Assembly (NCBI GenBank): GCA_029865845.1 | Contig: JARXAM010000056.1 | Span: forward strand, 1 to 39,757 | Reading direction: 5' to 3' | DNA: 39,757 bases | From: Rhodoferax sp. | Lineage (GTDB): Bacteria; Pseudomonadota; Gammaproteobacteria; Burkholderiales; Burkholderiaceae_C | Shown: positions 5,107 to 26,799 of the stretch, one piece after another | Numbering within the stretch: the stretch's first letter is position 1 | Layout of the letters: the number at the start of each line of letters is the position of its first letter | Notes under the pieces: model-generated | Database searches by the model: none | Told to the model about the DNA's origin: nothing | What the model saw: only the letters and a program-made list of their open reading frames with translations | Position numbers and translations under genes: made by a program

Positions 5107-6084
5107 GTGCAAGATTTAGTCTCAAAAGCCTTTCAAGCGCGACTGGAGCGGTTTCGCCAAAAAAGTCGTATCCAGGCCGGGTCGTTGATTACCACGGTGT
5201 TTGGTGATGCCATCCTGCCCCGGGGTGGAAGGGTGTCTCTGGGTAGCATGATTCAGTTGTTGCAACCCTTGGGCGTCAATGAGCGGCTAGTGCGCACCGC
5301 TGTGTATCGCTTAGTCAAAGAGGAGTGGCTGCAGTCCGAGGCATTGGGGCGCAAGACCGACTACATGCTCACTCCTTCGGGACGGAGCCGCTTCGATGAG
5401 GCATCCCGACAAATTTATGCCGCTGATATCCCCAGTTGGGACCATCGCTGGCGCCTGATTCTGATTGTGGGGGACTTGGACATTCGCTTGCGCGAACAGC
5501 TGCGCCGTGCATTGTTTTGGCACGGTTTTGGCGAAACGGCGACGGGTGGCTTCGTGCATCCAACAGCCGATCTGGAAAAAGTTATGGAAGGCCTGGAGTC
5601 CGAAGGACTGGAAGAGGTACGCGCTCACCTAATGCCTATGGTGGCCGTAAATGCGCGTGCGCCACAAGGTGCCAGTGACATCGACATGGTGCAAAAGGCT
5701 TGGAACTTGAGTGACTTGGCTTCGTCTTACGAAGGCTTTCTACAAAAGTACGAACCTATTCGCGATGCGCTGCTTGCAGGCACCCAGGAGGAAGTTTCGG
5801 ATGAAAGCGCATTTCTGGTGCGTACCCTGCTGATCCATGATGTGCGCCGGCTTTTACTACGTGATCCCCAGTTGCCGGAGAGCCTGCTCCCGTTGACTTG
5901 GCCGGGAAGTCGTGCCCGTCTTCTCTGTCGGGATTTGTACCGTAAGCTGTTGCCGCCGTCCGAGCGCCATCTGGATGCCAATGTGCGACTGTCAAGTGGC
6001 ACAGTGCCACAGCCGTCACGCGCACTGACCAGTCGTTTTGAATTCGGCATAGATCTTTATACCGGTACTCTGAGCGTAGTCTGA
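5107..6084 (+). CDS. paaX: PaaX, phenylacetate degradation operon repressor
   Basis: A 325-residue regulator of the PaaX family, a GntR-like winged-helix repressor that releases DNA on binding phenylacetyl-CoA. The N-terminal wHTH spans roughly residues 15-95 (SLITTVFGDAILPRGGRVSLGSMIQLL, then VRTAVYRLVKEEWLQ). The PaaX C-terminal domain follows, with WDHRWRLILI and the conserved FLVRTLLIHDVRRLLLRDPQLPE and WPGSRAR segments. Length is close to the usual 300-320 aa. The start is a GTG with no obvious Shine-Dalgarno; another start a few codons in is possible. It is transcribed toward the liv-paa cluster but separated from it by 1.1 kb with a terminator, so it is probably its own unit. Confidence 0.95.
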   Translation: MQDLVSKAFQARLERFRQKSRIQAGSLITTVFGDAILPRGGRVSLGSMIQLLQPLGVNERLVRTAVYRLVKEEWLQSEALGRKTDYMLTPSGRSRFDEASRQIYAADIPSWDHRWRLILIVGDLDIRLREQLRRALFWHGFGETATGGFVHPTADLEKVMEGLESEGLEEVRAHLMPMVAVNARAPQGASDIDMVQKAWNLSDLASSYEGFLQKYEPIRDALLAGTQEEVSDESAFLVRTLLIHDVRRLLLRDPQLPESLLPLTWPGSRARLLCRDLYRKLLPPSERHLDANVRLSSGTVPQPSRALTSRFEFGIDLYTGTLSVV

Positions 6085-7197: not shown

Positions 7198-8073
7198 ATG
7201 TTGGCCGAATTCCTGCAATTCCTGTTTTCAGGCATCACAGTGGGCTCCACCTATGCGCTAGCCGCATTGGGTTTCACGCTGATCTACAACTCAAGCCATG
7301 TGATCAACTTCGCTCAAGGCGAGTTCATCATGCTAGGTGGCATGTTGGCCGTGTACTTCACCAACTCAGGTCTGGGGTTGCCGCTGTCGCTGGTCTTGGC
7401 CATCATGCTGCCGGCTATCGTTGGCCTCCTAATGGAAAAAGCAGCCATTGAGCCGGTGAAAGGTGCTGAGCCAGTCACTCTGATCATCATCACTATCGGA
7501 GCCTCGCTGGTGATACGTGGTCTTGTGCAAGTCTGGTTGGGCAAGGGTACTTTCAGTCTTCCGGCCTTCTCTGGCGAGCAGCCCATCAACGTCTTGGGTG
7601 CAACGCTCATGCCACAAAGCCTTTGGGTGCTAGGTGTTTCAGCAGTGGTGGTCCTCTCCCTTTGGTACTTCTTTGCCTGCACCCTTATGGGTAAAGCCAT
7701 GTTGGCTACCTCTGTTAACCGAGTGGCTGCAGAGTTGGTTGGCATCAACACCGACGGCGTGCTGTTTCTAAGCTTTGCTATGTCAGCGGCCCTGGGCGCA
7801 CTGGGTGGTGTTCTTATCACGCCCATCACGCTTACCTCGTATGACGCCGGCATCATGCTCGGCCTCAAAGGATTTGTCGGTGCGGTGTTGGGTGGACTTG
7901 GGAATGGGTTGGGCGCGGTGGTAGGTGGTCTGCTGGTAGGCGTGCTCGAGGCCATGGGCGCCGGCTACATCTCATCCTCTTACAAGGACGCCATGCCCTT
8001 TGTGCTGATTCTTCTGATTTTGTTTTTCCGGCCAAGCGGCCTATTTGGTGGCAAAGCCACAGACCGGGTTTAA
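7198..8073 (+). CDS. livH: Branched-chain-amino-acid-type ABC transporter permease LivH
   Basis: A 291-residue inner-membrane permease of the LivH family with about eight hydrophobic helices. Typical segments are FLFSGITVGSTYALAALGFTLIYNSSHVINFAQGEF at the N-terminus and the cytoplasmic loop AELVGINTDGV followed by AMSAALGALGGVLI, which docks to the ATPase. It ends FFRPSGLFG. First gene of the liv-paa run, 4 nt before livM. In this context the transporter most likely imports an aromatic acid such as phenylacetate and not branched-chain amino acids; the sequence alone cannot decide. Confidence 0.93.
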   Translation: MLAEFLQFLFSGITVGSTYALAALGFTLIYNSSHVINFAQGEFIMLGGMLAVYFTNSGLGLPLSLVLAIMLPAIVGLLMEKAAIEPVKGAEPVTLIIITIGASLVIRGLVQVWLGKGTFSLPAFSGEQPINVLGATLMPQSLWVLGVSAVVVLSLWYFFACTLMGKAMLATSVNRVAAELVGINTDGVLFLSFAMSAALGALGGVLITPITLTSYDAGIMLGLKGFVGAVLGGLGNGLGAVVGGLLVGVLEAMGAGYISSSYKDAMPFVLILLILFFRPSGLFGGKATDRV

Positions 8074-8077
8074 GAGC

Positions 8078-9010
8078 ATGAGCAAACATCCCTACCGCGG
8101 TCTGTATTTGATCGCCGCTGTGCTCCTACTACTGCCGCTGGTGCTGCCCAATAGCTTTTATGTGGACTTAGTGATTCGGATGGCTATCAACGCCGTCATC
8201 GTGCTGGGCCTGAATCTGCTGATTGGCTTTGCCGGGCAGATCAGCCTGGGCCATGCGGGCTTTATCGGCATTGGCGCGTATGCCTCGGCTGCCTTGCCCA
8301 CGCACCTCGGCTGGCACCCCTTGCTAGCCGTGGTGGTTGGAGCACTCGCAGCAGGAGTGCTAGCTGCTGTGCTGGCGCGCCCGATCTTCCGTCTAAAGGG
8401 CCACTACCTGGCCATGGCCACGCTGGGTCTCGGCATCATCATCAACATCGTTGTGCGCAACGAAGCCGCCTGGAGTGGTGGCCCCGACGGCATGGCCGTG
8501 CCTCCCATGGCCTTTGGCAGTTTTGAAATCTCCGGCGACAAGCCCTGGTACTGGATCGTTGCCAGTCTGCTGTGCGTCAGCATCTGGGCGTCCATCAACA
8601 TCATCGATTCACCCTTTGGCCGCGCCCTGCGGGCCTTGCATGGGTCCGAGGTGGCGTCCAAGGTGGTGGGTGTGCATGTGGTGCGTTACAAAGTCAGCGT
8701 GTTCGTCATGTCTGCCATGTTTGCCAGCATCATGGGCAGCGTTACCGCACTTTATGTGGGGTTCGTCACACCGAATCTAGCGGACTTTTTCCATTCGATC
8801 GAACTGGTAACAATGGTCGTTATCGGCGGCATGGGCTCCATCTATGGCTCGGTGCTAGGCGCTGTGTTGCTCACCGCTTTGCCCCAAGCACTGGCCACCT
8901 GTGAGGGTTGGGAGACGGTGGTGTTTGGCGCCATCCTGATGCTCTGCATGATCTTCCTGCCCAAGGGTCTGGTGCCCACGCTGGCCGCCCGTTTCGGCAA
9001 GGGGGAATGA
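8078..9010 (+). CDS. livM: Branched-chain-amino-acid-type ABC transporter permease LivM
   Basis: A 310-residue permease partner of LivH. Family features: LNLLIGFAGQISLGHAGFIGIGAYASA, then RLKGHYLAMATLGLG, FGRALRALHGSEVASKVVGVHV (the ATPase-coupling loop) and GMGSIYGSVLGAV. I start at the ATG at 8078 (SKHPYRGLYL), just after the livH stop; the longer reading from 8045 would overlap livH by 29 nt without a ribosome site. Its stop codon overlaps the livG start (ATGA), so the two are translationally coupled. Confidence 0.93.
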   Translation: MSKHPYRGLYLIAAVLLLLPLVLPNSFYVDLVIRMAINAVIVLGLNLLIGFAGQISLGHAGFIGIGAYASAALPTHLGWHPLLAVVVGALAAGVLAAVLARPIFRLKGHYLAMATLGLGIIINIVVRNEAAWSGGPDGMAVPPMAFGSFEISGDKPWYWIVASLLCVSIWASINIIDSPFGRALRALHGSEVASKVVGVHVVRYKVSVFVMSAMFASIMGSVTALYVGFVTPNLADFFHSIELVTMVVIGGMGSIYGSVLGAVLLTALPQALATCEGWETVVFGAILMLCMIFLPKGLVPTLAARFGKGE

Positions 9011-9774
9011 ACATGGCTTTGCTTGAAGTTCAAGACCTCTCGATCCAGTTTGGCGGCGTCAAAGCCGTGCAGAACGTGTCGTTCAGTATCGATGCCGGTA
9101 TCGTCTATGCAGTGATAGGGCCCAACGGCGCCGGCAAGACCACGCTGTTCAACCTGATTACGGGCATCTACACGCCCACCTCCGGCAGCATCTTGCTCGA
9201 TGGCCAGCCCATTCAGGGCAAATCGCCCGATGTACTGGCGCAGCGCGGTGTAGCGCGCACCTTTCAGAATCTGCAGATCTGCATGAACATGAGCGCGGTG
9301 GAAAACGTCATGGTCGGCGCCCATTTGCGCCTGGACCGCAACCTGTTTAAGTCCGCGCTGCGCTGGCCCGCCCTCAAGGCGCGTGACCGCGATCTGCACG
9401 CCGAGGCGTTGGAGCTAATGCGCTTTGTGGGCCTGGAGAGTTATGCAACGGCACGCGCCGACAGCATGTCTTATGGAGCCCTCAAACGCCTGGAGATTGC
9501 CCGCGCGCTGGCCATGAAGCCGCGCCTGCTGTTTCTAGACGAGCCGGCTGCCGGCCTCAACCCGAAGGAAACCATCGAGGTGGATGCCCTGATCCGCAAG
9601 GTGGCCGACACCGGCGTGACCGTGGTGCTGGTGGAGCACGACATGAAGATGGTGATGAACCTGTCCGACCGCATTCTAGTGCTGGACTACGGACGCAAGC
9701 TGGCCGAAGGCACTGGCGCCGAAGTGCGGCGCAACCCCGATGTGATTGCCGCCTATCTGGGCGCCCACGCCTGA
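9007..9774 (+). CDS. livG: ABC transporter ATP-binding protein LivG
   Basis: A 255-residue ATPase that energises the LivHM pore. Walker A GPNGAGKTT at residues 38-46, Q-loop in ARTFQNLQICMNM, a variant signature region SYGALKRLEIARAL where LSGGQ normally stands, Walker B LLFLDEPAAGLNP, and the switch His in VLVEHDMKMV. The C-terminal RRNPDVIAAYLG is characteristic of LivG. The signature reads SYGALKR instead of LSGGQQR, a known variant within LivG-like proteins. ATG overlaps the livM stop; GGGGGA precedes it. Confidence 0.93.
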   Translation: MNMALLEVQDLSIQFGGVKAVQNVSFSIDAGIVYAVIGPNGAGKTTLFNLITGIYTPTSGSILLDGQPIQGKSPDVLAQRGVARTFQNLQICMNMSAVENVMVGAHLRLDRNLFKSALRWPALKARDRDLHAEALELMRFVGLESYATARADSMSYGALKRLEIARALAMKPRLLFLDEPAAGLNPKETIEVDALIRKVADTGVTVVLVEHDMKMVMNLSDRILVLDYGRKLAEGTGAEVRRNPDVIAAYLGAHA

Positions 9775-9787
9775 ACGGAATACCTCC

Positions 9788-11104
9788 ATGGACGCACTCA
9801 CCATCATCAGCCAGGAACACAGCAATATGTGGCGCCTGGCGACCACCCTGGACCAGGTGGCTTCCGACATGCAGGCGGTGGCGCCATCGGAGATCGCCTT
9901 CTTCGAGGCCGCATTCGACTACATGACGCAGTTTGTCGACCGCATGCACCACCCCAAGGAAGACCACTTCCTGTTTCGCCTGCTGCGCCTGCGCAGCGCC
10001 GAAGCGGCGGATGTGCTGGACGCTCTGGAAGCCGACCACCGCCAGGGCCCGGCGAATTTGGCGCAGCTGCGCTCCAAACTGGCCGCTGCGGCCCAGGGAC
10101 AACTGCCCGTCGCAGCCTTGGCGGTCGCCGTCAAGCATTACACCGATGGCCTCAAGGGCCACATCAAGACCGAAGAAGAGCATGTGCTGCCGCTGGCACG
10201 CAAAGCGCTGCTGCCGCAAGACTGGGCCGAGATCGACCAAGCCTTTCGCACTCACAGCGACCCTGTGTTTGGCGACCACGACAAGGCCGAATTCCGCGAA
10301 CTGTTTCACCGTATTGCAAGCCTGGCCCCCGACTCGGTCGGCCTGGGTGCCAGCTGTGTGGGCAGCTTGCAAGTCACCACGGCAACGACGCAACAATCGG
10401 TGCTGCTCAAAGTGGAAGGGCTGGAGAGTTGCTACGGCCGCATCAAGGCGCTAAAGGGCATCACCCTGGAAGTGCGCAAGGGCGAGACCGTGGCCTTGGT
10501 GGGTGCCAACGGCGCCGGCAAGACCACGTTTCTGCGCGCGGTGTCGGGCGTGCAATCCATCAGCGCCGGCAGCATCCACTTTGATGGCGAAGACATCAGC
10601 AAGCTGCGCTCTGACAAGCGCATGCGCCGAGGCATTTGCCAAAGTCCCGAGGGCCGCCAGGTATTCGGGCCGCTTTCGATCGAAGATAACTTGCGCCTGG
10701 GTGCCTACACCCAGCCCAAGCACCAGGTGGCCGGCGACATGGAAAAGATATTTGCCATGTTTCCCATCTTGAAAGAAAAGCGCGCCTTACCTGCGGGCAC
10801 CCTGTCCGGCGGGCAGCAGCAGATGCTAGCCATAGGCCGCGCCCTGATGGGCCGCCCCAGCCTGTTGCTGCTGGACGAGCCCTCGATGGGGCTAGCGCCG
10901 CTCTTGGTCGAAGAAGTCTTCAACGTCATCAAGACACTCAAGTCCCAGGGGATGACGATTCTGCTGGTGGAGCAAAACGCCTTCGCCGCACTGGCCATTG
11001 CCGACCGCGGCTATGTCCTGGAGACCGGCACAGTGACGCTGACCGGCACGGGAGAAGAGCTGATCCACAACGAACAAGTGCGCGCTGCCTACTTGGGTAT
11101 GTAA
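9788..11104 (+). CDS. Hemerythrin-like domain fused to ABC ATPase LivF
   Basis: A 438-residue two-domain protein. Residues 1 to about 180 form a hemerythrin/HHE cation-binding domain: H11 in SQEHSNMW, H54-H55-x2-E58 in MHHPKEDHFLF, H84 in LEADH, and H125-x3-E129 with H132 in GHIKTEEEH. This is the ligand pattern for a non-heme di-iron centre. A linker of about 25 residues leads into a full LivF ATPase (about 205-438) with Walker A GANGAGKTT (239-247), LSGGQ (339-343), Walker B LLLLDEP (359-365), the switch-His position replaced by Gln in LVEQNAFAAL, and the usual LivF ending VRAAYLGM. Free LivF is about 235 aa, so the first 200 residues are extra. The start ATG is 13 nt after livG. Probably cytoplasmic at the membrane; O2 or redox sensing is inferred. 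Confidence 0.92.
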   Translation: MDALTIISQEHSNMWRLATTLDQVASDMQAVAPSEIAFFEAAFDYMTQFVDRMHHPKEDHFLFRLLRLRSAEAADVLDALEADHRQGPANLAQLRSKLAAAAQGQLPVAALAVAVKHYTDGLKGHIKTEEEHVLPLARKALLPQDWAEIDQAFRTHSDPVFGDHDKAEFRELFHRIASLAPDSVGLGASCVGSLQVTTATTQQSVLLKVEGLESCYGRIKALKGITLEVRKGETVALVGANGAGKTTFLRAVSGVQSISAGSIHFDGEDISKLRSDKRMRRGICQSPEGRQVFGPLSIEDNLRLGAYTQPKHQVAGDMEKIFAMFPILKEKRALPAGTLSGGQQQMLAIGRALMGRPSLLLLDEPSMGLAPLLVEEVFNVIKTLKSQGMTILLVEQNAFAALAIADRGYVLETGTVTLTGTGEELIHNEQVRAAYLGM

Positions 11105-11151
11105 ACACGGCGCTTTTTTTCATCGACCAAAAAATGATTCGGAGATACGTT

Positions 11152-12819
11152 ATGCCTCAAGCCTTTTTTGAGAAGCATCAGACCACGTTGTACGCTGCGT
11201 TGGACGCCATTGGCAGTCGCTGCTACTGGTCTGCCTACGCAGAAATGCCCAGCCCGAAAATCTACGGAGAGACGGCGCCCGCAACTGGAAAAACCGACTA
11301 TGAGGCGCACCTTGGGAAGCACTTTGACTTGACACAACCCGGTATACAGGCATGGGCTGGTGGCGAGCAGTCTCCTTACGGGGTGGCACTGGATGTGCAG
11401 TATCCGGTATGCGCAATCCAGGCACTGATCGATGCCGGGCAGGCCGCCATGGCGTCGTGGCAAGCACTGGGAGTGAACGGCAGAACGGGCGTCTGCATGG
11501 AAATGCTGGCGCGCTTGAACCAGCGTAGTTTTGAGCTCGCCCACTCCGTGATGATGACCACGGGCCAAGGCTGGATGATGGCTTTTCAGGCCGGTGCCGC
11601 GCACGCCCAGGACAGGGGCCTGGAGGCAGTGGCCTACGCCTACCGCGAGCAGAGCTTTGTGCCGCAGGATGCCATGTGGGAAAAGCCGCAGGGTAAGAAC
11701 CCGCCACTGCGTATGCAAAAACATTTTGAGATTGTCGGCCGTGGTGTGGCCGTCGTCGTGGGCTGCGGCACCTTCCCCACTTGGAATACCTATCCCGGTT
11801 TATTCGCGGCGTTGGCCACCGGCAATGCCGTGATCGTCAAACCGCATGAACAGGCTATCTTGCCTGCGGCAATCACGGTCAAAATTCTGCGCGAGGTACT
11901 GAGCCAAGTGGGCGTAAGTCCTAATCTGGTTAGTTTGTGTGTGCCCGCCAACCAAGAGATCACTCAAGCCCTGGTCACACATGCAGATGTCAAGTCCGTT
12001 GACTTCACTGGCAGCAATTCCTTTGGCAACTGGCTCATAGACCGCTGCCGCCAAGCCCAGGTCTATGCCGAGCTAGCGGGAGTCAATACCATCGTCATCG
12101 ACTCCACTGATTCCTACCAGGCCATGCTGCGCAACCTGGCCTTCAGCCTGTGCCTTTACTCAGGCCAGATGTGCACCACCTCCCAGTTGCTGGTGGTGCC
12201 AGCAGCCGGCATTGGCACCGACGAAGGCGCCAAGAGCTACGAGCAAGTCTGTGCCGATCTGGCCGCCGCCATCGATTTAGCCCTCGCTAAGCCGGAGGTG
12301 GCGTGTGCTGTCTTGGGTGCGATCCAGTCACCGGCCACTATTGCCCGAATCGACCACGCCAATAGCGGTGAGTTGGGTACCGTGGTGCGTGCCTCGCAAA
12401 CCCTGCACAACGCCGAATTCCCGGCTGCCGTTGTGCGCTCGCCCGTGCTGCTGGCCGTGGATGCCAGTGCCGAGTCCGCCTACATGGAAGAGCGCTTTGG
12501 TCCCATTACTTTTGTAGTCAAAGCCGCAGATACCAACGCTGCGATCGCTCTGGCCGAGCGCATCGTTCACACCCATGGCGCGTTGACGCTGGCGGTGTAC
12601 TCCACACAGAGCGCGGTGGTCGACGCCATGACGCAAGCCAGTTGGAATGCCAAGGTGGCCTTGTCCATCAACCTCACCAGCGGCGTGTTCGTCAACCAGT
12701 CGGCCGCCTTCTCCGATTACCACGGCACCGGTGGCAACCCGGCAGCCAATGCTTCCTATTGCGACTCGGCCTTTGTGGCCAATCGCTTCCGCGTGATCCA
12801 GCGCCGTTACCACGTTTAA
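11152..12819 (+). CDS. paaN: PaaN-type aldehyde dehydrogenase family protein
   Basis: A 555-residue protein of the PaaN_2 branch of the aldehyde dehydrogenase superfamily, found in Paa clusters. The ALDH fold is visible from VGCGTFPTWNTYPGLFAAL through GNAVIVKPHE, VDFTGSNSFG, the catalytic Glu in VYAELAGVN (E307) and Cys in SGQMCTTSQ (C341), spaced 34 residues as usual. It ends in the PaaN-like YHGTGGNPAANASYCDSAFV. GGAG at 11141-11144 supports the ATG at 11152 over one 18 nt upstream. Its exact step is uncertain because paaZ, present downstream, already has an aldehyde dehydrogenase domain; in clusters with both, PaaN may be accessory or act on a related aldehyde. Confidence 0.88.
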   Translation: MPQAFFEKHQTTLYAALDAIGSRCYWSAYAEMPSPKIYGETAPATGKTDYEAHLGKHFDLTQPGIQAWAGGEQSPYGVALDVQYPVCAIQALIDAGQAAMASWQALGVNGRTGVCMEMLARLNQRSFELAHSVMMTTGQGWMMAFQAGAAHAQDRGLEAVAYAYREQSFVPQDAMWEKPQGKNPPLRMQKHFEIVGRGVAVVVGCGTFPTWNTYPGLFAALATGNAVIVKPHEQAILPAAITVKILREVLSQVGVSPNLVSLCVPANQEITQALVTHADVKSVDFTGSNSFGNWLIDRCRQAQVYAELAGVNTIVIDSTDSYQAMLRNLAFSLCLYSGQMCTTSQLLVVPAAGIGTDEGAKSYEQVCADLAAAIDLALAKPEVACAVLGAIQSPATIARIDHANSGELGTVVRASQTLHNAEFPAAVVRSPVLLAVDASAESAYMEERFGPITFVVKAADTNAAIALAERIVHTHGALTLAVYSTQSAVVDAMTQASWNAKVALSINLTSGVFVNQSAAFSDYHGTGGNPAANASYCDSAFVANRFRVIQRRYHV

Positions 12820-12828
12820 GGACGGCCC

Positions 12829-13620
12829 ATGGACTACCAGAACATCCGCTTTGAAGTCACAGCTGGCGTCGCCCGCCTGACGCTGAACCGCCCGGACAAG
12901 CTCAACAGCTTCACCGGTGTAATGCATGTGGAGTTGCGCGTTGCACTCGACAGCATCCAGACCGATAAGAGCATCCGCGTGCTAGTGCTCACCGGTGCCG
13001 GCCGTGCTTTTTGCGCCGGGCAAGACCTGGCCGATCCGGACATGGCCGTGGGTGCCACGGCGCCCGACATCGGCAATGTAGTTGAGCAGAACTACAAGCC
13101 GCTGATCCTACGCCTGCAAAATTTGAGCGTGCCCACGGTCGCCATGGTCAATGGCGTAGCAGCGGGTGCCGGTGCCAGTCTGGCCCTTGCTTGCGATCTG
13201 GTGATTGCCGGCAAATCGGCGTCTTTCCTGCAGGCCTTCAGCAAGATCGGCCTGATTCCTGATACCGGCGGCACCTGGTTTTTGCCGCAGCGCGTGGGCA
13301 TGGCTCGCGCGCTTGGGTTGGCGATGTTGGCCGACAAGCTGCCAGCTGAAAAAGCTGCCGAATGGGGCCTGATTTGGCAAGCGGTGGAAGATGCCGAACT
13401 GGTTGCCACCGTCGACAAACTGGCCACACAACTCGCTGCCATGCCGACCAAGGCGCTGGTGCGCACGCGCCAGGCCATGCACGCCGCGCCCATGCACACG
13501 CTGGAGCAACAGCTCTCAATGGAAGGGGGCTTTATGCGCGAACTCGGCTGGAGCCCCGACTTTGCTGAGGGCGTCGCCGCCTTTATGGAAAAGCGCGCAG
13601 CGCGTTTCACCGGTAACTGA
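12829..13620 (+). CDS. paaG: PaaG, 1,2-epoxyphenylacetyl-CoA isomerase
   Basis: A 263-residue crotonase-family enzyme that converts ring-1,2-epoxyphenylacetyl-CoA to oxepin-CoA. It has the oxyanion-hole segments GRAFCAGQDLAD and GVAAGAGASLALACDLVIA, and the FSKIGLIPDTGGTWFLP segment in which the Asp replaces the hydratase Glu, as expected for an isomerase of the PaaG type. Starts 9 nt after paaN and ends 4 nt before paaH, within the cluster. Confidence 0.9.
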   Translation: MDYQNIRFEVTAGVARLTLNRPDKLNSFTGVMHVELRVALDSIQTDKSIRVLVLTGAGRAFCAGQDLADPDMAVGATAPDIGNVVEQNYKPLILRLQNLSVPTVAMVNGVAAGAGASLALACDLVIAGKSASFLQAFSKIGLIPDTGGTWFLPQRVGMARALGLAMLADKLPAEKAAEWGLIWQAVEDAELVATVDKLATQLAAMPTKALVRTRQAMHAAPMHTLEQQLSMEGGFMRELGWSPDFAEGVAAFMEKRAARFTGN

Positions 13621-13624
13621 TCGC

Positions 13625-15190
13625 ATGAACACTACTCCCTTAACGTCTGCCATGTCTACTGCATCGTCGACAGCACTTCCGCAACACGCCTTGGTGGCGG
13701 TGGTCGGCGCCGGTGCCATGGGTGCCGGTATTGCTCAGGTGGCTGCCGTAGCCGGGCACCGCGTGATGCTACTAGACAACCGTCCGGGCGCTGCTCAAGC
13801 CGCAATCGACGGACTGCGCGCCCAACTCGACAAGCTGGCCGCAAAGGGCAAGCTGACAGCAGAAGCCGCGCAGACTGCTGGCCAACGCCTGCAGGCCGCC
13901 ACGGAACTCAGCGATCTCTCCGCCGCCGCCCTGGTGGTCGAAGCCATTGTCGAAAGCCTGAGCGCCAAACAAGCCCTGTTCGCAGATCTGGAAGCACTGG
14001 TGTCCACCGACTGCCTCTTTGGCAGCAACACGTCCTCCATCTCGATTACCGCGATTGGTTCGGCCTTAAAGCATCCGCAGCGGCTGGCCGGCTTGCACTT
14101 TTTCAACCCCGCGCCGGTGATGGCGCTGGTGGAAATCGTCAGCGGCCTGGCCACTGACACAGCCGTGGCTGACACGCTGTTTGCCACCGCCACTGCCTGG
14201 GGTAAGACGGCTGTACACGCCAAGTCCACTCCCGGCTTTATCGTGAATCGCGTGGCTCGACCGTTTTACGCCGAAGCGCTGCGCCTGCGCACCGAAGGCG
14301 CGGCAAGCTGCGCCACGTTGGATGCTGTGATGCGCGAGTCCGGCGGCTTTCGCATGGGTCCATTCGAGTTGATGGACATGATCGGCTTGGATGTCAATTT
14401 CGCGGTCACACGTTCGGTGTGGAATGCATATTTCAACGACCCGCGCTACCTGCCGTCGCTAATTCAGCAGGACCTCGTCGATGCCGGTTTTCTGGGTAAG
14501 AAGAGTGGCCGAGGTTTCTACGACTACCGCGAAGGTGCCGCCAAACCCCAGCCGCAAACTGAGCCGCGCCATTCCGCGCCGACCCGCCTCGTGGTCTGTG
14601 GCGATGCGCCCGCAGCCCAAGCGCTGGGCGTAAGACTGCAAGCAGCCGGCGTGGCGTTTGAACGCACCGTCTCTATTGATGGTCGCATTGCCGAAGCCGA
14701 TGACACTGTGCTTTTCGTAACGGACGGCCGCAGTGCCACCCAGCGTGCAGCCGAAGGTGGTATTGCCAATACAGTGCTGATCGATCTGGCGCTGGACTAC
14801 AGCAAAGCCACCCGTGTCGCTCTGGCCCCTGCCGGCCAGTGCAGCGAGGCCGCCTTTGCCGCCGCTTGCGCCGCGCTGCAAGCCGCCGGCGCACAGGTCT
14901 CGCGTCTGGCTGATGTGCCGGGGCTGGCCGTGATGCGCTCCGTGGCCATGCTGGCCAACGAAGCGGCGGACGCGGTCTACCAGGGCGTATGCACAGCTCG
15001 CGCTGCAGACGACGCCATGCGCTTGGGCGTGAACTATCCAAAGGGGCCGCTGGCTTGGGCCGACCAAGTGGGCCTGGCCAGCATCCAGCAGGTGCTCACC
15101 CATTTGAACGCAGCCTATGGCGAAGACCGTTACCGCATTTCGCCGCTGATCCAGCGACAGGTTTATCAAGGGAAGAACATCCATGTCTGA
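13625..15190 (+). CDS. paaH: PaaH, 3-hydroxyadipyl-CoA dehydrogenase
   Basis: A 521-residue 3-hydroxyacyl-CoA dehydrogenase. The N-terminal Rossmann motif VVGAGAMGAGIAQ has its glycines at 28, 30 and 33; SNTSSISI and GLHFFNPAPVMALVEIV mark the catalytic His region; NRVARPFYAEALRL and the K-SGRGFYDY motif end the first catalytic domain. A second, shorter dehydrogenase C-terminal domain follows from about residue 410 (NEAADAVYQGV, MRLGVNYPKGPLAWAD). It oxidises 3-hydroxyadipyl-CoA with NAD+. The start at 13625 is 4 nt after paaG; an alternative ATG lies at 13652. It overlaps paaI by 8 nt. Confidence 0.92.
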   Translation: MNTTPLTSAMSTASSTALPQHALVAVVGAGAMGAGIAQVAAVAGHRVMLLDNRPGAAQAAIDGLRAQLDKLAAKGKLTAEAAQTAGQRLQAATELSDLSAAALVVEAIVESLSAKQALFADLEALVSTDCLFGSNTSSISITAIGSALKHPQRLAGLHFFNPAPVMALVEIVSGLATDTAVADTLFATATAWGKTAVHAKSTPGFIVNRVARPFYAEALRLRTEGAASCATLDAVMRESGGFRMGPFELMDMIGLDVNFAVTRSVWNAYFNDPRYLPSLIQQDLVDAGFLGKKSGRGFYDYREGAAKPQPQTEPRHSAPTRLVVCGDAPAAQALGVRLQAAGVAFERTVSIDGRIAEADDTVLFVTDGRSATQRAAEGGIANTVLIDLALDYSKATRVALAPAGQCSEAAFAAACAALQAAGAQVSRLADVPGLAVMRSVAMLANEAADAVYQGVCTARAADDAMRLGVNYPKGPLAWADQVGLASIQQVLTHLNAAYGEDRYRISPLIQRQVYQGKNIHV

Positions 15191-15662
15191 ACACGCCCAC
15201 GCGCATGTGCCCGAACTGACACCCGCCGAGGCGGAGCAACTGGCGCAAGACGCTGCCAATGCGATGTGGTCACGCGATCATGTGGCTCAGTCCATGGCCA
15301 TGGCACTGGATGAAGTCAGACCTGGCTTCGCCCGCCTCTCCATGGTGATTCGCCAGGACATGGTCAATGGCCACGCCATCTGCCACGGCGGGATGCTGTT
15401 CACATTGGCCGACACCGCCTTTGCATACGCCTGTAACAGCCACAACCACAACACTGTGGCCTCGGCCTGCCACATCGACTTTCTGGCGCCCTCGCACCTG
15501 GGCGAAACCTTGGTGGCCGAAGCGCACGAACGCGCTCTCAGTGGTCGCGCCGGCGTGTATGACGTGACCGTCAGTACGGCAAAGGGCAAGACAGTGGCCC
15601 TGTTTCGCGGCAAGTCCGCACGCATCAAGGGTGAAGTCACGGCCAGCTTGGTGCAGGCCTAA
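15183..15662 (+). CDS. paaI: PaaI, hydroxyphenylacetyl-CoA thioesterase
   Basis: A 159-residue hotdog-fold thioesterase. The conserved active-site stretch reads GHAICHGGMLFTLADTAFAYACNS, with the Asp in LADTAFA as the likely catalytic residue, followed by CHIDFLAPSHLGETL. PaaI frees CoA from dead-end or inhibitory intermediates of the pathway, preferring ring-hydroxylated phenylacetyl-CoA esters. Overlaps the end of paaH, so coupled translation is likely. Its N-terminus has a His-rich stretch EHAHAHVPE. Confidence 0.93.
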   Translation: MSEHAHAHVPELTPAEAEQLAQDAANAMWSRDHVAQSMAMALDEVRPGFARLSMVIRQDMVNGHAICHGGMLFTLADTAFAYACNSHNHNTVASACHIDFLAPSHLGETLVAEAHERALSGRAGVYDVTVSTAKGKTVALFRGKSARIKGEVTASLVQA

Positions 15663-15703
15663 GCCCATTTCACGCAATCAAAAAAATCTATGCAGGAGAC
15701 AAC

Positions 15704-17029
15704 ATGACCGTCAAATTCCCCCAGCCCGGTGAACTCGAAGCGATCGAGACCGCCAGCCGCGACGAGATATCGGCGCTGCAACTTGAGCGCCTGAAATGGT
15801 CGCTGCGCCATGCCTATGACAACGTGCCCTTTCACCGCAAGGCCTTTGACGACAAGGGTGTGCACCCGGACGATTTGAAGACGCTGGGGGATCTGTCCAA
15901 GTTCCCCTTCATGACCAAGAACGCCCTGCGCGACAACTATCCATTTGGCCTGTTTGCCGTGCCACGTGAGCAGGTCTTGCGCCTGCATGCATCGAGCGGA
16001 ACCACCGGCAAATCCATTGTCGTGGGTTACACCGCGCAAGACATCGACAACTGGGCCAATCTGGTGGCGCGATCGATACGCGCCGCCGGTGGCCGTAAGG
16101 GCGACATGCTGCACAACGCCTATGGCTACGGCATGTTCACCGGCGGCTTGGGTGCGCACTACGGCGCCGAGCGCTTGGGCTGCACCGTGGTGCCCATGTC
16201 CGGCGGTCAGACCGAAAAGCAGGTCGCACAGATTCTGGATTTCCAGCCGCAGATCATCATGGTCACGCCGTCCTACTCGCTGGTGATTGCCGAAGAGTTC
16301 GAACGACTGGGCATCAAGCCCGACGACATTTCGCTCAAGGTAGGCATCTTCGGTGCCGAGCCCTGGGGCGAGGGCATGCGCGCCGAGATAGAACGCAAGC
16401 TCGGTATCGACGCCATCGACATCTACGGCCTGACCGAAGTGATGGGGCCGGGCGTGGCCTGCGAATGCATCGAGTCAAAGGACGGCCCGGTGATCTGGGA
16501 AGACCATTTCTATCCCGAGATCATCAACCCCGACACCGGCGAAGTGGTGGCAGACGGCGAAGACGGCGAACTGGTGTTTACCTCGCTCACCAAGCAGGCT
16601 TTCCCCGTCATCCGCTACCGCACCCGGGATCTGACGCGCCTGCTGCCACCTACCTCACGCGCTTTCCGCCGCATGGGCAAGATCACCGGTCGGTCGGACG
16701 ATATGTTGATCGTGCGCGGTGTGAATGTGTTCCCCTCGCAGATTGAAGAGCAGATCCTGCGCGACAAGCGCCTGTCGGGCAACTACCAGGTGCTGCTCAC
16801 GCGTGACGGCCCGCTGGACAACCTGGAGGTACGTTGCGAGGTGCAGCGCGAGATCTCTGCCACCTTGAGCCAGGACCTGATCGCATCCATTGCCAAGGAA
16901 CTGCAGCACCACATCAAGACCAACGTGGGCGTCTCCACCCGCGTCACGGTCATGCCCTTTGAGGGCATTCCCCGCACTGTCACCGGCAAGGCTCGCCGCG
17001 TGATCGACGAACGCCCCAAACTGGTTTGA
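15704..17029 (+). CDS. paaK: PaaK, phenylacetate-CoA ligase
   Basis: A 441-residue adenylate-forming enzyme that activates phenylacetate with ATP and CoA, the entry step of the pathway. The P-loop HASSGTTGKSIVVGYT lies near residue 96, followed by NAYGYGMFTGGLGAHYGAERLGCTVVP, the motif IYGLTEVMGPGVACEC and the hinge region YRTRDLTRLL. The C-terminal domain has GRSDDMLIVRGVNVFPSQIE and the catalytic Lys region RTVTGKARRVID. Length matches the family. AGGAGA precedes the ATG. Lies between paaI and paaJ in one run. Confidence 0.96.
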   Translation: MTVKFPQPGELEAIETASRDEISALQLERLKWSLRHAYDNVPFHRKAFDDKGVHPDDLKTLGDLSKFPFMTKNALRDNYPFGLFAVPREQVLRLHASSGTTGKSIVVGYTAQDIDNWANLVARSIRAAGGRKGDMLHNAYGYGMFTGGLGAHYGAERLGCTVVPMSGGQTEKQVAQILDFQPQIIMVTPSYSLVIAEEFERLGIKPDDISLKVGIFGAEPWGEGMRAEIERKLGIDAIDIYGLTEVMGPGVACECIESKDGPVIWEDHFYPEIINPDTGEVVADGEDGELVFTSLTKQAFPVIRYRTRDLTRLLPPTSRAFRRMGKITGRSDDMLIVRGVNVFPSQIEEQILRDKRLSGNYQVLLTRDGPLDNLEVRCEVQREISATLSQDLIASIAKELQHHIKTNVGVSTRVTVMPFEGIPRTVTGKARRVIDERPKLV

Positions 17030-17038
17030 AGGAAAAAC

Positions 17039-18244
17039 ATGATTGATGCCCTGATTTGCGACGCAATTCGCACACCCATTGGCCGCTACGGCGGCGCGCT
17101 GGCCAGCATGCGCCCGGATGATCTGGGAGCCGTGCCCCTGAAAGCGCTGATGCAGCGCAACCCCACGGTCGATTGGACAGCGGTGGACGACATCCTCTAT
17201 GGCTGCGCCAACCAGGCCGGTGAAGACAACCGCAATGTGGCGCGCATGTCTGGTCTGCTTGCCGGCCTGCCGATCGAAGTGCCCGGCACCACTCTGAACC
17301 GCCTGTGCGGCTCGGGCATGGACGCTGTGGGACTGGCGGCCCGCTCCATCAAGTCGGGCGAGACGCAACTGATGATTGCCGGTGGCGTGGAGAGCATGTC
17401 GCGCGCACCCTTTGTCATGGGCAAGGCTGAGACGGCCTTCTCGCGCAACGCTGCCATTTTTGATACGACGATCGGCTGGCGTTTTGTCAATCCTTTGATG
17501 AAAGCGCAGCATGGCATCGACTCTATGCCGCAAACCGCTGACAACGTAGCTGCAGACTTTAATGTCTCGCGCGCAGATCAAGACGCATTTGCCTTGCGCT
17601 CGCAACAGCGCTGGGCCAAAGCTCACGCTGCGGGTCACTTTCTGGACGAGCTAGTACCTGTTGTGATGACACGCAAAAAGGGCGATGCGGTCTTTTTTGA
17701 AACAGACGAGCATCCCCGCCCTGAAACCACGCTGGACATGCTGGCCAAGCTCAAGGGCGTCAACGGTCCGGACTTGTCGGTCACCGCCGGTAATGCCTCT
17801 GGTGTGAACGATGGTGCCTGCGCCCTGCTGCTGGCATCCAAAGATGCGGCAGCGCGCTACGGCCTGACGCCCAAAGCGCGTGTGGTCGGTATGGCCACCG
17901 CCGGTGTAGCACCGCGCATCATGGGTATCGGTCCCGCACCCGCCGTGCGCAAAGTGCTGCAGCAAACCGGACTGACGCTGGCGCAGATGGATGTGATTGA
18001 ACTCAATGAGGCGTTTGCCGCACAAGGCCTGGCCGTTATGCGTGACCTGAATCTGGCCGACGACGACTCCCGCGTCAACCCCAATGGCGGTGCCATTGCG
18101 ATGGGCCACCCGCTGGGCATGAGCGGTGCGCGCTTGGTCACCACCGCTATGTATGAACTCAACCGCCGAAATGGTCGCTACGCACTGTGCACCATGTGCG
18201 TCGGTGTAGGGCAGGGGATTGCGCTGGTGATAGAGCGCGTTTGA
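17039..18244 (+). CDS. paaJ: PaaJ/PcaF, 3-oxoadipyl-CoA (and oxo-dehydrosuberyl-CoA) thiolase
   Basis: A 401-residue thiolase, full length for the family (400-401). Catalytic Cys at residue 90 in LNRLCGSGMDAVG; GGVESMSRAPFVM; the His motif NGGAIAMGHPLGMSGARL; and the second Cys in CTMCVGVGQGIAL. It resembles both PaaJ and PcaF, which carry out the same thiolysis; the position in the Paa cluster points to PaaJ. It cleaves 3-oxo-5,6-dehydrosuberyl-CoA and 3-oxoadipyl-CoA. Starts 9 nt after paaK, with AAGGAA ahead of the ATG. Confidence 0.92.
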   Translation: MIDALICDAIRTPIGRYGGALASMRPDDLGAVPLKALMQRNPTVDWTAVDDILYGCANQAGEDNRNVARMSGLLAGLPIEVPGTTLNRLCGSGMDAVGLAARSIKSGETQLMIAGGVESMSRAPFVMGKAETAFSRNAAIFDTTIGWRFVNPLMKAQHGIDSMPQTADNVAADFNVSRADQDAFALRSQQRWAKAHAAGHFLDELVPVVMTRKKGDAVFFETDEHPRPETTLDMLAKLKGVNGPDLSVTAGNASGVNDGACALLLASKDAAARYGLTPKARVVGMATAGVAPRIMGIGPAPAVRKVLQQTGLTLAQMDVIELNEAFAAQGLAVMRDLNLADDDSRVNPNGGAIAMGHPLGMSGARLVTTAMYELNRRNGRYALCTMCVGVGQGIALVIERV

Positions 18245-18281: not shown

Positions 18282-19439
18282 ATGATTTCTCGTTTCAAAA
18301 AACTCGTCCTCGGGTGCTCTATGACGACGGCATTGGCGCTGTTGACTGGTGCAGCGTTGGCTGCAGACCCGATCAAGGTCGGCTCAGTCCTGTCCATCAC
18401 CGGCCCTGCCGGTTACCTGGGTGACCCCGAACTCAAAACCTTGCAGATGATGGTGGAAGACATCAACAAAAAAGGCGGCGTGCTGGGCCGCCCCCTGGAG
18501 CTGGTGCACTACGACGATGGCAGCGATGCCAGCAAAGCGAATGGCTTTGGCAAACGGCTGATTGACGACGACAAGGTCGACATCATCGTGGGGGGCACGA
18601 CTACTGGCGCCACCATGTCCATGGTGCCGCTGGTCGAGAAAGCCGGTGTGCCATTCATTTCACTGGCCGGTGCCGTGGTAGTGATTGAGCCGGTGAAAAA
18701 GTTTGTTTTCAAGACGCCGCACACCGACCGCATGGCCGCGGAGAAAGTGTTTGACGACATGAAGAAGCGCGGAATTACCAAAGTAGCTTTGTTGTCCGAG
18801 ACCAGCGGCTTTGGCGCTTCAGGCAAAAAGGAGACCGAAGGCGTTGCCGGCAAGTACGGCATCACGTTGGTGGCCAACGAAACCTACGGTCCCAAAGACA
18901 CCGACATGGGCCCGCAGCTAACCAAAATTCGGAACACTGCCGGCGTAGAAGCAGTGTTTGTGTTCGGCCTAGGTCAGGGCCCGGCGCTGGTTACCAAGGG
19001 CTACAAGCAGCTCGGTATCACCCTGCCTCTGTACCACGCACATGGTGTTGCGTCTGACGACTTCATCAAGCTCGCCGGCCCTGCATCTGAAGGCGTGCGC
19101 CTGCCTACATCTGCCTTGCTGGCACCGGACAAGCTGGCCGCTAACGACCCGCAGCGCCCCGTAGCCGAGGGCTACACCAAGGCATTCAAAGCCAAGTACA
19201 AGACAGACGTTTCTGCGTTTGGCGGCTATGCCTATGACGCTCTGGCCCTGGCAGTCGATGCCATCAAGCGCGCCGGTTCGACCGACAAGGCCAAGGTACG
19301 TGACGCCATCGAAGCCACCAAAGGCTTTGTAGGTACCGGTGGCGTATTCAATATGTCTGCCACCGACCACATGGGGCTGGACCTGTCGGCCTTTCGCATA
19401 TTTGAAATCAAGAACGGCGACTGGATTCTGTCCAAGTAA
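18282..19439 (+). CDS. Periplasmic ABC substrate-binding protein (Leu/Ile/Val-binding type)
   Basis: A 385-residue type-I periplasmic binding protein (Peripla_BP_6). The N-terminus has a signal peptide with charged start and hydrophobic core ending ALAADPIKVG. Then come SVLSITGPAGYLGDPELKTLQMMVEDINKKGGVLGRPLELV and the hinge and pocket region IIVGGTTTGATMSMVPLVEKAGVPFISLAG. It is the missing capture component for LivHMGF, though placed about 7 kb downstream between paaJ and a hydratase. AAGGAG lies ahead of the ATG. Its presence in the catabolic run argues for an aromatic-acid ligand (inference). Confidence 0.93.
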   Translation: MISRFKKLVLGCSMTTALALLTGAALAADPIKVGSVLSITGPAGYLGDPELKTLQMMVEDINKKGGVLGRPLELVHYDDGSDASKANGFGKRLIDDDKVDIIVGGTTTGATMSMVPLVEKAGVPFISLAGAVVVIEPVKKFVFKTPHTDRMAAEKVFDDMKKRGITKVALLSETSGFGASGKKETEGVAGKYGITLVANETYGPKDTDMGPQLTKIRNTAGVEAVFVFGLGQGPALVTKGYKQLGITLPLYHAHGVASDDFIKLAGPASEGVRLPTSALLAPDKLAANDPQRPVAEGYTKAFKAKYKTDVSAFGGYAYDALALAVDAIKRAGSTDKAKVRDAIEATKGFVGTGGVFNMSATDHMGLDLSAFRIFEIKNGDWILSK

Positions 19440-19465: not shown

Positions 19466-20251
19466 ATGTTTGAAACCCTCACGATTGAACATTCTGGCCC
19501 GGTTGCCACAATCTGGATGACTAGGCCCGATGTCTTCAACGCTTTCAACGAGCAACTTATTAACGAGCTTACCGCCGCCTATGCCTTGCTTGAACAGGAC
19601 AACAGCGTACGAGTGGTGGTGCTTGGTGGACGCGGACCGCATTTCTCGGCTGGTGCTGACCTGAACTGGATGCGTCGAGCTGCCAACGCCAGTGAGCAAG
19701 ATAACTTGGAGGACGCTCGCTGCTTTGCCCGCATGCTGCACACGCTCTCAACCTTGTCTAAGCCCACCATTGCTAGGGTGCAAGGAGCGGCATTAGGGGG
19801 GGGCACCGGACTGACTGCTGCTTGCGATATGGCCGTGGCCAGTGCGGATGCGGTGTTCAGTACTTCCGAAGTGAAGTTCGGCATTATCCCGGCCGTCATC
19901 AGTCCCTACGTGCTGCGGGCTATCGGGCCACGTCAGGCGCTGCGCTATTTCCAGTCGGCTGAGCGTATCAGCGTCGAGAAGGCTCTAGCCATAGGCTTGG
20001 TGCATGAAGTCGCGCCGTTAGAGCAGCTGGATGTGGCGGTTGCTGCACTTGTGAAGTCTTTGCTTGCTGGTGGCCCGTTGGCACAAAAGGCCGCCAAGGA
20101 TTTGATTTCAGCCGTGCATGGCAAAGCACTAAATGAGCTGACGTTAGAAGACACATCACAGCGCATTGCGCGTCAGCGCCGAACTGATGAAGCACGCGAA
20201 GGCGTGTCGGCATTTCTCGACAAGCGGTCCCCCGCTTGGATGACCCCTTAA
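19466..20251 (+). CDS. Enoyl-CoA hydratase/isomerase family protein, PaaF candidate
   Basis: A 261-residue crotonase-family protein. Oxyanion-hole segments are PHFSAGADLNWM and VQGAALGGGTGLTAACDMAVAS, and the catalytic region is STSEVKFGIIPAVISPYVLRAIG. The cluster otherwise lacks paaF (2,3-dehydroadipyl-CoA hydratase), so this is the natural candidate. However, GADLNWMRR and the ISPYV stretch resemble methylglutaconyl-CoA hydratases of leucine catabolism, so it might be a recruited enzyme. Starts 26 nt after the binding protein. Role assigned by context. Confidence 0.75.
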   Translation: MFETLTIEHSGPVATIWMTRPDVFNAFNEQLINELTAAYALLEQDNSVRVVVLGGRGPHFSAGADLNWMRRAANASEQDNLEDARCFARMLHTLSTLSKPTIARVQGAALGGGTGLTAACDMAVASADAVFSTSEVKFGIIPAVISPYVLRAIGPRQALRYFQSAERISVEKALAIGLVHEVAPLEQLDVAVAALVKSLLAGGPLAQKAAKDLISAVHGKALNELTLEDTSQRIARQRRTDEAREGVSAFLDKRSPAWMTP

Positions 20252-20282
20252 ACCACTGATAACCCCCAAGGAGTGAGTGCAG

Positions 20283-21296
20283 ATGTACACCCAATCATTT
20301 AACGTGCAAGAAAAACCAGGCCAGAGGCCTGCAAGCCTGCCGGTCTCGCTGGAGAACGTCGAATCGCAAAAGCGCTTTGACAATCGGATTGATGCCGACG
20401 GCAAAATTGAGCCACAAGACTGGATGCCTGAGGCCTATCGCAAAACGCTATTGCGTCAGATCAGCCAGCATGCGCACAGCGAGATCGTCGGTATGCTGCC
20501 TGAGGGCAATTGGATTAGCCGCGCTCCCAGCCTTAAGCGCAAGGCCATCCTGATTGCCAAGGTGCAAGACGAGGCCGGTCACGGCCTGTACCTTTACAGC
20601 GCTGCCGAAACACTGGGTCAGGGTCGTGACCAGATGTTGGCTGACCTGCACAGCGGTAAAGCCAAGTACAGCTCCATCTTCAACTACCCCACGCTCAGCT
20701 GGGCAGATGTCGGCGTGGTCGGCTGGCTGGTGGATGGCGCGGCAATCATGAACCAGATACCGCTTTGTCGCTGCTCCTATGGACCGTATGCGCGGGCCAT
20801 GATTCGGGTCTGCAAAGAAGAGTCATTCCACCAGCGTCAAGGCTATGAGGCCTTGCTGGTAATGATGCAAGGAACGGCCGAACAGAAGGCCATGGTCCAG
20901 GACGCCGTGAACCGCTTTTGGTGGAAGTGCTTGGCTATGTTCGGACCTCCGGATGCCAACAGTCCGCACAGCGAGCAGGCCATGCGTTGGGGTATCAAGC
21001 GCGTTAGTAACGATGACCTGCGCCAGAAGTTCATTGACGCTACGGTTCCACAAGCTCGAGTGCTGGGCGTGACCCTGCCCGACCCTGATCTGAAGTGGAA
21101 CGAAGAGCGCCAGCACTACGACTATGGCCAGATTGACTGGGATGAATTCTGGAATACGGTAAACGGCAACGGCCCTTGCAACAAGGAGCGTCTAGCCACG
21201 CGAGTGAAAGCCCACCACGACGGCCAATGGGTGCGCGATGCCGCCTTGGCCTATGCCCAAAAACACAAGTCCATAACGCACAAGGAAGCAGCATGA
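20283..21296 (+). CDS. paaA: PaaA, catalytic subunit of phenylacetyl-CoA 1,2-epoxidase
   Basis: A 337-residue di-iron oxygenase subunit that inserts an oxygen atom into the aromatic ring of phenylacetyl-CoA. Iron-ligand regions are visible: [17 protein letters not shown] and [15 protein letters not shown], both of the E-x2-H type. Conserved [14 protein letters not shown] follows. AAGGAG (20268-20273) is 9 nt from the ATG at 20283, which therefore is preferred over the GTG at 20277. Stop overlaps the paaB start (ATGA). Confidence 0.96.
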
Positions 21297-21589
21297 GCAC
21301 CACAGCTTTGAAAGATTGGCCTCTCTGGGAAGTTTTCGTTCGTAGCAAACAGGGCCTGGAGCATAAGCACTGCGGCAGCTTGCACGCATCGGAAGCGCAA
21401 CACGCTTTGCAAATGGCGCGCGATGTCTACACCCGCCGCCAGGAAGGTGTGAGCATCTGGGTGGTGCCCTCAAAGTCCATCACTGCCAGTGCACCGGATG
21501 ACAAGGATTCGCTGTTCGAGCCAGCTGCCGACAAAATCTACCGGCATCCCACCTTTTACAACATTCCTGAAGAAGTGGGGCACATGTAA
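21293..21589 (+). CDS. paaB: PaaB, structural subunit of phenylacetyl-CoA epoxidase
   Basis: A 98-residue small subunit that bridges PaaAC heterodimers. Family features: [47 protein letters not shown] and the ending [16 protein letters not shown]. Length matches (about 95 aa). Its ATG overlaps the paaA stop, and its TAA shares a base with the paaC start. Confidence 0.96.
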
Positions 21590-22374: not shown

Positions 22375-22379
22375 TTACC

Positions 22380-22988: not shown

Positions 22989-23023
22989 TCCCCATCCGCT
23001 AACCCTATTCCTACCCGCACCCC

Positions 23024-24127: not shown

Positions 24128-24149
24128 GCCTTCATTCTGAATACACATC

Positions 24150-26189: not shown

Positions 26190-26196
26190 GAACTAA

Positions 26197-26799
26197 ATGC
26201 CTTGCTATTCGATTGAAGGGGTGATACCCGTGGTGCACCCCAGCGCCTACGTACATCCGACAGCCGTGCTGATCGGTGACGTGCATATCGGCCCGAACTG
26301 CTACGTAGGACCCAACGCCAGTTTGCGCGGTGACTTCGGTCGCATCGTGCTGCTGGCCGGAGCAAATTTGCAGGACAACTGTGTCATGCATGGATTCCCG
26401 CAGCAGGACACTTTGGTCGAGGAAAATGGCCACATCGGTCACGGCGCCGTACTACATAGCTGCACGGTGCGCCGCGATGCTTTGGTGGGTATGAACGCGG
26501 TGGTGATGGACGAAGCTGAGGTAGGACCACGAGCCATAGTGGCCGCATGTGCATTCGTTCCTGCGGGTATGCGGGTGGCTGAGCAGACATTGGTAGCTGG
26601 TGTACCAGCTAGAGCGATACGCCAACTAACCGAAGAGGAAGTCCAATGGAAGCTTGCTGGTACTGAGACCTACCAAGACTTGACCCGGCGTTGCCTAGCC
26701 TCGCTCAAGAAAGTAGATCCGCTCGAAGAGGTTGAGGATAATCGTCCCTCAGTGCTTGCGCCACCGGTAAGGCCGCTTATTGCCATCAAGCGCGGTTGA
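26197..26799 (+). CDS. paaY: PaaY, hexapeptide-repeat thioesterase/carbonic-anhydrase-like protein
   Basis: A 200-residue left-handed beta-helix protein of the gamma-carbonic-anhydrase-like family. Hexapeptide repeats run from [35 protein letters not shown] to [17 protein letters not shown]. Metal-ligand histidines sit in DNCVMHGFP and in [12 protein letters not shown]. PaaY acts as a thioesterase on a dead-end CoA adduct in studied bacteria. Starts 7 nt after paaZ. Confidence 0.92.

Follow-up and report, generated by a model that had tools for sequence, protein, structure and literature searches.

Why would the ATPase subunit of an amino-acid-type importer carry a hemerythrin-like domain, and could that domain tie the uptake of an aromatic acid to O2? 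The question is raised by one gene on a 39,757-nt contig of Rhodoferax sp. (JARXAM010000056.1, assembly GCA_029865845.1; this whole stretch is referred to as the window), which a first-pass annotation described as a hemerythrin-like di-iron domain fused to a LivF ATPase inside a phenylacetate (paa) cluster. The fusion is kept in dozens of relatives and is reversed in two other pumps, and uptake of aromatic acids may therefore be tied to O2.

Domain structure of the fused protein

The fusion ORF (9788-11104, + strand) is open from ATG to TAA and encodes 438 amino acids, with PF01814 and PF00005 matched in one frame, in agreement with the first-pass annotation. The hemerythrin-like (HHE) domain occupies 9788..10345 (aa 1-186), followed on the same strand by a variable linker (10346..10396, aa 187-203) with low conservation (alignment A1) and pLDDT <50, and by a LivF-type ABC ATPase domain with the stop codon (10397..11104, aa 204-438). 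The Pfam Hemerythrin match (PF01814) covers aa 4-137 and positions 3-127 of the 127-position profile (60.4 bits; cut-off 25.3). Its predicted ligands are H11, H54 (H55), E58, H84, H125 and E129, residues that stand at the positions given earlier. The domain is modelled as a helical bundle resembling solved members of PF01814.

In the C-terminal half, PF00005 (ABC_tran) matches aa 222-366 (105.3 bits, Pfam), and the motifs GANGAGKT, LSGGQQQ and LLLLDEP, which we take to be Walker A, the signature and Walker B, are all present in columns that are invariant or nearly so in a 23-row alignment; the nucleotide-binding motifs are intact, as had been claimed. The NCBIfam LivF model (NF008626) is covered from position 3 to 236 of 237 by aa 204-437, at 264.8 bits (equivalog cut-off 441), and this half scores below the cut-off in each of the best 25 of 188 NCBIfam models. 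By its domain matches the C-terminal half is a LivF-like subunit, and to that extent the earlier label "LivF" holds, but the E. coli LivF equivalog is ruled out by the score. The PF00005 match, together with a run of LivH, LivM and LivG genes and a periplasmic binding protein, places the protein among the ABC ATPases of the branched-chain-amino-acid importer class. LivF and UrtE subunits match the C-terminal half over their full length, and the operon order LivH-LivM-LivG-LivF is common to both, whereas those subunits are without the extra N-terminal domain of the window protein.

The production of free LivF from an internal start is unlikely, because the in-frame start codons near the linker in the window are GTG or TTG only (10358, 10367, 10400, 10412) and there is no conserved Met around the linker in the 23-row alignment. 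The full-length model has a mean pLDDT of 61 and does not place the HHE domain relative to LivF; its ATPase half is modelled poorly, and we therefore make no claim on domain contacts. The Foldseek matches listed for this model are ABC proteins, one without a title.

Gene cluster in the window

The fusion gene comes after those for LivH, LivM and LivG and before paaN, in the order paaX-livH-livM-livG-[HHE-livF]-paa, all on the + strand; the placement inside a phenylacetate cluster is upheld by paaX, paaNGHIKJ, paaA-E, paaZ and paaY around it. The PaaX repressor (5107..6084) scores 276.2 bits with TIGR02277 (cut-off 264.55). The LivH-type permease (7198..8073), the LivM-type permease (8045..9010; uncertain start) and the LivG-type ATPase, the partner subunit (9013..9774), match their NCBIfam models at 138.2, 163.6 and 287.2 bits, respectively, below cut-offs of 379, 366 and 362. 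Downstream, paaN, paaG, paaH, paaI, paaK and paaJ (11134..18244) are assigned from NCBIfam, Pfam and gene order: PaaN, PaaG and PaaK pass the NCBIfam cut-offs, PaaH scores 668.8 vs. 669.4, and PaaI and PaaJ are assigned from Pfam domain and gene order. Within the paa run, ~7 kb downstream of the fusion gene, lies a gene for a periplasmic substrate-binding protein (18282..19439; PF13458, 205.1 bits; LivK-type model, 96.3 bits, below the cut-off of 477). It is followed by genes for an enoyl-CoA hydratase, paaA-paaE, paaZ and paaY (19466..26799), with PaaZ and PaaY above the NCBIfam cut-offs. We take paaA-paaE to encode the ring epoxidase and its reductase.

Recurrence of the fusion and its gene neighbourhoods

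Scans of named genomes and of relatives gave 34 distinct fused proteins including that of the window, 30 of them full-length, with 3 that run off the contig and one (L055) that ends early near a contig end. An ATG stands at the window's start position in every fused row among the 34, and LivG is immediately upstream of the fusion in every locus read. The first-pass annotation had reckoned with a stop or frameshift between the domains and with relatives that carry separate genes only; fused relatives with the same domain order exist, and both domains lie in one open frame in 56 of 56 other fused loci checked. The window genome, in 143 contigs and ~76% complete, could by itself invite suspicion of an assembly or frameshift artefact. 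Against this stand the 56 other loci, which include single-contig genomes (four carry the fusion: G221, G669, G755 and G656) and a complete plasmid. Because the fusion is repeated in independent assemblies, chance or frameshift fusion is ruled out, and we give an artefact practically no weight.

Among close LivF matches (E up to 1e-85), 13 of 22 are fused in 399 genomes sampled from the family and 10 of 23 in 399 genomes sampled from the order, the rest being unfused; the window's own genome is counted in both samples. At the level of the phylum, 4 of 378 genomes match at 1e-95, namely the genome of the window and three genomes from family f62, which belongs to the same class. Relatives with and without the domain coexist in one genus group (G636 and G562). 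A plasmid search gave 95 matching records; one of the matches listed covers at least 80% of the query and the other 14 correspond to the ATPase half. The former is a full-length fusion (47% identical) on the complete plasmid AZO_p1 of Azospirillum lipoferum 4B (NC_016585.1, 996793-998115); a gene for a Rieske ring-hydroxylating oxygenase lies ~5 kb away, and no paa match was found in 25 kb around the fusion save a weak PaaE-like one.

At least one paa-type gene is present in 35 of the 42 distinct fused loci with flanks (36 of 43 rows before L155, a duplicate of L049, is merged), and eight of these 35 have a single paa-type gene only (L056, L061, L062, L146, L153, L159, L248 and L250). The check proposed earlier, whether the fusion always lies in paa clusters, is thus largely borne out, with 7 of the 42 loci lacking such a gene. 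From this gene neighbourhood we infer that the importer substrate is phenylacetate or a close aryl acid. Three loci (L054, L057 and L149) have no match to the paa, FAD-oxidoreductase, c34 (a gene described below) or Ior queries, and at L151 the only match among these queries is IclR; the other genes of these four loci are only partly annotated. An FAD-dependent oxidoreductase gene occurs in eight fused loci (L046, L048, L049, L050, L152, L160, L163 and L164; 863 bits with NF006002 in L050), the flanks of which hold an MBL gene in seven, a VOC gene in five and a FAH gene in four. IorA/IorB-type genes neighbour the fusion in three loci (L051, L061 and L062), with the L061 gene at 521.9 bits against the TIGR03336 cut-off of 650.9.

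Ligand conservation, selection and phylogeny

Ligands were counted in 55 distinct fused HHE segments, derived from 56 loci and the window. The count omits L010-L013 and L017, whose genomes are already represented by named loci; L105 and L124, which are duplicates of L049 and L053 in the LivF tree; and L064 and L066, for which the available sequence contains no HHE. All six predicted ligands are kept in 51 of the 55, and H55 is common (48 of 55). The six ligand columns average 97% conservation vs. 65% for HHE columns 1-159, a level that random sets of six HHE columns reach in 4 of 100,000 draws. The same seven residues (the six ligands and H55) are found in 12 of 13 separate and 2 of 2 C-terminally fused HHE domains. 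Values of dN/dS for the HHE domain are 0.07-0.35, indicating purifying selection, and the domain evolves faster than the LivF part. Ligand retention and dN/dS both fit the earlier description of one intact protein. In the L057 fusion (8034-9350), R11, K58 and D129 stand at predicted ligand sites, and in the L245-L247 fusions (family f62) T58 and Y84 do so, with the LivF half in frame in each.

A quick LivF tree recovers a main clade with 53 fused, 4 unfused and 1 unclassified row (SH-aLRT 91, not starred), while the fused rows L114 and L132 fall outside it. Three of the four unfused rows in the clade (L064, L111, L115 and L128) still sit in paa clusters (L064; loci L161 and L150), so the importer is kept without HHE in these cases. 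In the HHE tree, a single branch (SH-aLRT 97) separates the 25 N-terminally fused rows from the rest. One origin of the N-terminal fusion followed by several losses would be the simplest reading of trees that do not separate gain from loss. At L064 (3731-5244), in a paa cluster, the LivF is 90% identical to that of the window, the HHE stretch is absent and a linker-like peptide stands at the LivF start, which looks like a clean natural deletion of HHE.

HHE genes beside other Liv-type importers

In other importers the match of a separate HHE gene begins 21-60 bases after the end of livF. Such livF-HHE pairs occur with a 3-hydroxybenzoate 6-monooxygenase that passes its cut-off (L200 and L202), with a gentisate dioxygenase-like gene (L195 and L200) and an AndAc-like Rieske dioxygenase (L195 and L198) that both score below theirs, and with meta-cleavage genes, assigned in L239 with an aldolase above cut-off and in L240-L242 by gene order (L240 and L241 have the same monooxygenase-like domains). 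In L252 the pair shares its stretch with a LigB extradiol dioxygenase gene, and in L199 the HHE gene comes after LivM, near an HpaB-like gene. In L196 and L197 the pair is followed not by aromatic genes but by one for a dicarboxylate symporter, and in L196 also by one for a serine dehydratase (Pfam), which rules out that separate pairs are always in aromatic clusters.

The reverse order, LivF-HHE, is found as a fusion in two genomes. That of G798 (L208, 95-1417, - strand, 441 aa) is ~6 kb from a protocatechuate 4,5-dioxygenase LigA gene, and that of G765 (L251, 6241-7632, - strand, 464 aa) is directly before a 3-hydroxyanthranilate 3,4-dioxygenase gene; G798 carries both fusion types (HHE-LivF and LivF-HHE). 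The two C-terminally fused rows are placed apart from each other in the HHE tree, where both are long branches. The link between HHE, importers of the Liv type and aromatic pathways that use O2 extends beyond what the first-pass annotation could see.

When the LivF-HHE protein of G798 is used as the query for this second LivF type, HHE is present in 4 of 15 places (fused in L223 and L235, separate in L224, adjacent in L229) and absent from the available stretch in the other 11, which rules out that this type is usually accompanied by HHE. Likewise, HHE is not usually near Liv genes: 40 of 47 HHE loci, which are top search matches and no random sample, have no Liv gene within ~1.5 kb, and one of the remaining seven has a partial LivF match.

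Comparison with known hemerythrin domains

The HHE domain of the window does not fit the canonical hemerythrin motif: HxxxE is present (H54, E58), no His stands at 88 after H84, and H125xxxE129 replaces HxxxxD. Its best profile match among solved structures is the hemerythrin domain of FBXL5 (PDB 3v5x and 3u9j; E 4e-5), and the YtfE iron-sulphur repair protein is matched at E 2e-4; a single-sequence search of solved structures returned one chance-level match (E 0.47). FBXL5 is a human ligase subunit whose hemerythrin domain is an iron and O2 sensor. Its H57, E61, H126 and E130, presumably the metal-site ligands, align with H54, E58, H125 and E129 of the window, whereas FBXL5 has E where H55 stands and identity over the fold match is ~16%.

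Separate HHE genes (COG3945) have been described in benzoate clusters of the Rhodocyclales and Rhodoferax ferrireducens, and their operons can include a benzoate ABC transporter; their role in benzoate metabolism is given there as "not clear", with protection or an O2 store/scavenger suggested (PMC6449761). These benzoate/phenol clusters resemble the window in that HHE and an aromatic-acid ABC importer are encoded together in Betaproteobacteria, but the COG3945 HHE is a separate gene, whereas that of the window is fused in frame to the ATPase and fused loci are mostly near paa genes (PMC6449761). Aromatic operons that combine an HHE gene with an ABC importer, the arrangement of the COG3945 type, were found here by gene context.

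A hemerythrin-like domain on a transport ATPase is also present in P1B-5 ATPases, where its role (O2, redox or iron) is unsettled; these are metal-ion P-type ATPases with the motif H-HxxxE-HxE-HxxxxD, in contrast to the organic-acid-type ABC importer of the window (PMC9388753). DcrH, Bhr-DGC and Bhr-HD-GYP likewise use a hemerythrin domain as an input fused to an effector domain, but the effectors are chemotaxis or c-di-GMP domains and the motif is H-HxxxE-HxxxH-HxxxxD (PMC9388753). The window protein shares with sensors of the DcrH type the fusion to an N- or C-terminal functional domain.

Among the papers listed by searches of the open-licence PMC literature, we found no account of an HHE-LivF fusion. 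The earlier statement that no such system was known to be described holds for the fusion within those listings, but needs qualifying for its nearest parallels, separate HHE genes with benzoate ABC transporters (PMC6449761) and P1B-5 (PMC9388753). The fusion is ordinary in its parts and new in its combination and recurrence.

Proposed function and alternative explanations

We propose that the fused protein is the LivF-type ATPase of an ABC importer of the branched-chain-amino-acid family, with a di-iron-type hemerythrin-like domain on its N-terminus. The HHE domain would bind a di-iron centre, and its O2, redox or iron state would alter the ATPase or importer assembly, such that the aryl acid is admitted only while PaaABCE, whose attack on the ring depends on O2 and iron, is able to work; PaaK would then trap the imported acid as its CoA ester. 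The same kind of partner may serve some importers for other aromatic acids, either as a separate protein or as a C-terminal fusion. HHE is joined to LivF in either order, and where it is a gene of its own it lies close to livF; both observations point to action at the ATPase. Many of the neighbouring genes belong to ring attack with O2, and for that reason we favour an input from O2, redox state or iron. That HHE provides such an input on aryl-acid uptake is the most probable of the readings considered, and we hold it tentatively. Somewhat more speculative is the broader idea of an importer class in which a di-iron sensor of O2/redox (or iron) switches the ATPase directly, with the coupling having evolved several times (N- and C-terminal fusion, separate partner).

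Next in probability, and doubtful in our view, is a tethered HHE that serves the importer as a local O2 store, scavenger or protector against ROS, without transport control. Such a role, or protection, has been suggested for the separate COG3945 HHE of benzoate clusters (PMC6449761), and an HHE protein encoded separately in such an operon does not have to touch LivF; the reading fails, however, to explain why LivF and not an oxygenase is the fusion partner in both orders, and a single site per ATPase would be a small store. We consider it improbable that the domain is a structural passenger that stabilises LivF or the complex with no need of metal. Loss of ligands in 4 of 55 distinct fused HHE domains, the faster evolution of HHE than of LivF and the four rows of the fused clade without the domain would all suit a passenger, whereas the far higher conservation of the ligand columns than of other HHE columns, and the recurrence of the same seven residues in separate and C-terminally fused domains, speak against it. 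Ranked last is a role in iron alone, in which HHE senses cellular iron or supplies iron to the PaaABC epoxidase. The profile matches to FBXL5 and YtfE agree with it, as does a ligand pattern that aligns with FBXL5 and misfits the canonical motif, but HHE also accompanies importers beside enzymes such as 3-hydroxybenzoate 6-monooxygenase, for which we know of no need for a di-iron centre.

The preferred reading, in which O2, redox state or iron acts on uptake through HHE, has limits of its own. The unfused rows in the fused clade, the ligand losses and the IorAB-type neighbours in three loci argue against a strict O2 gate, and the absence of the domain from intact-looking paa clusters, together with the ligand losses, means that some hosts can do without whatever control there is. 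If the domain does control transport, we would have, to our knowledge, the first case of an ABC importer under a hemerythrin-type gate, and a way in which bacteria of soil and fresh water keep reactive aryl-CoA intermediates from building up when O2 runs out. Even without gating, the two LivF-HHE fusions and the repeated livF-HHE pairs offer a direct route to the HHE genes found in aromatic clusters. The matter can now be put to the test, with relatives that differ in the domain within one genus group (G636, G562) and with A. lipoferum 4B as a carrier of the fusion.

Additional genes in the window and related loci

Seven fused loci (L051, L062, L145, L147, L148, L154 and L156) contain gene c34, the L051 copy of which (7-1032, - strand, 342 aa) has no Pfam or NCBIfam match. 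ExxH-like motifs are visible by eye, and the gene is often beside a PaaE-like reductase gene and near livH. Such a reductase gene is near c34 in 5 of the 7 loci, the L145 copy having Fer2 and reductase domains; the two genes possibly encode an unnamed di-iron oxygenase pair.

Eight relatives (L039-L044, L055 and L059) have a gene for an IclR-type regulator of ~260 aa between paaX and livH, and in L041 it comes directly after a cut paaX. In the window this position (6116-6780, + strand) holds what looks like a decayed copy, because only fragments in three frames match (25-42% identity).

Elsewhere in the window, an aldehyde dehydrogenase gene is followed by a copper amine oxidase gene (31630-35369; NF011285, 1376 bits, above cut-off). 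Phenylacetaldehyde dehydrogenase StyD models are among the best for the former, all below cut-off, and the two could form a feeder from phenylethylamine to phenylacetate. An FtrA-like regulator gene (36120-37097, - strand) scores below cut-off, and a SOUL heme-binding protein gene (3568-4362, - strand; PF04832, 133.8 bits) is near paaX. In two further loci (L205, 1480-2502, - strand; L190, 1015-2055, + strand) a PF00582 universal stress protein domain is followed by a PF01814 hemerythrin domain.
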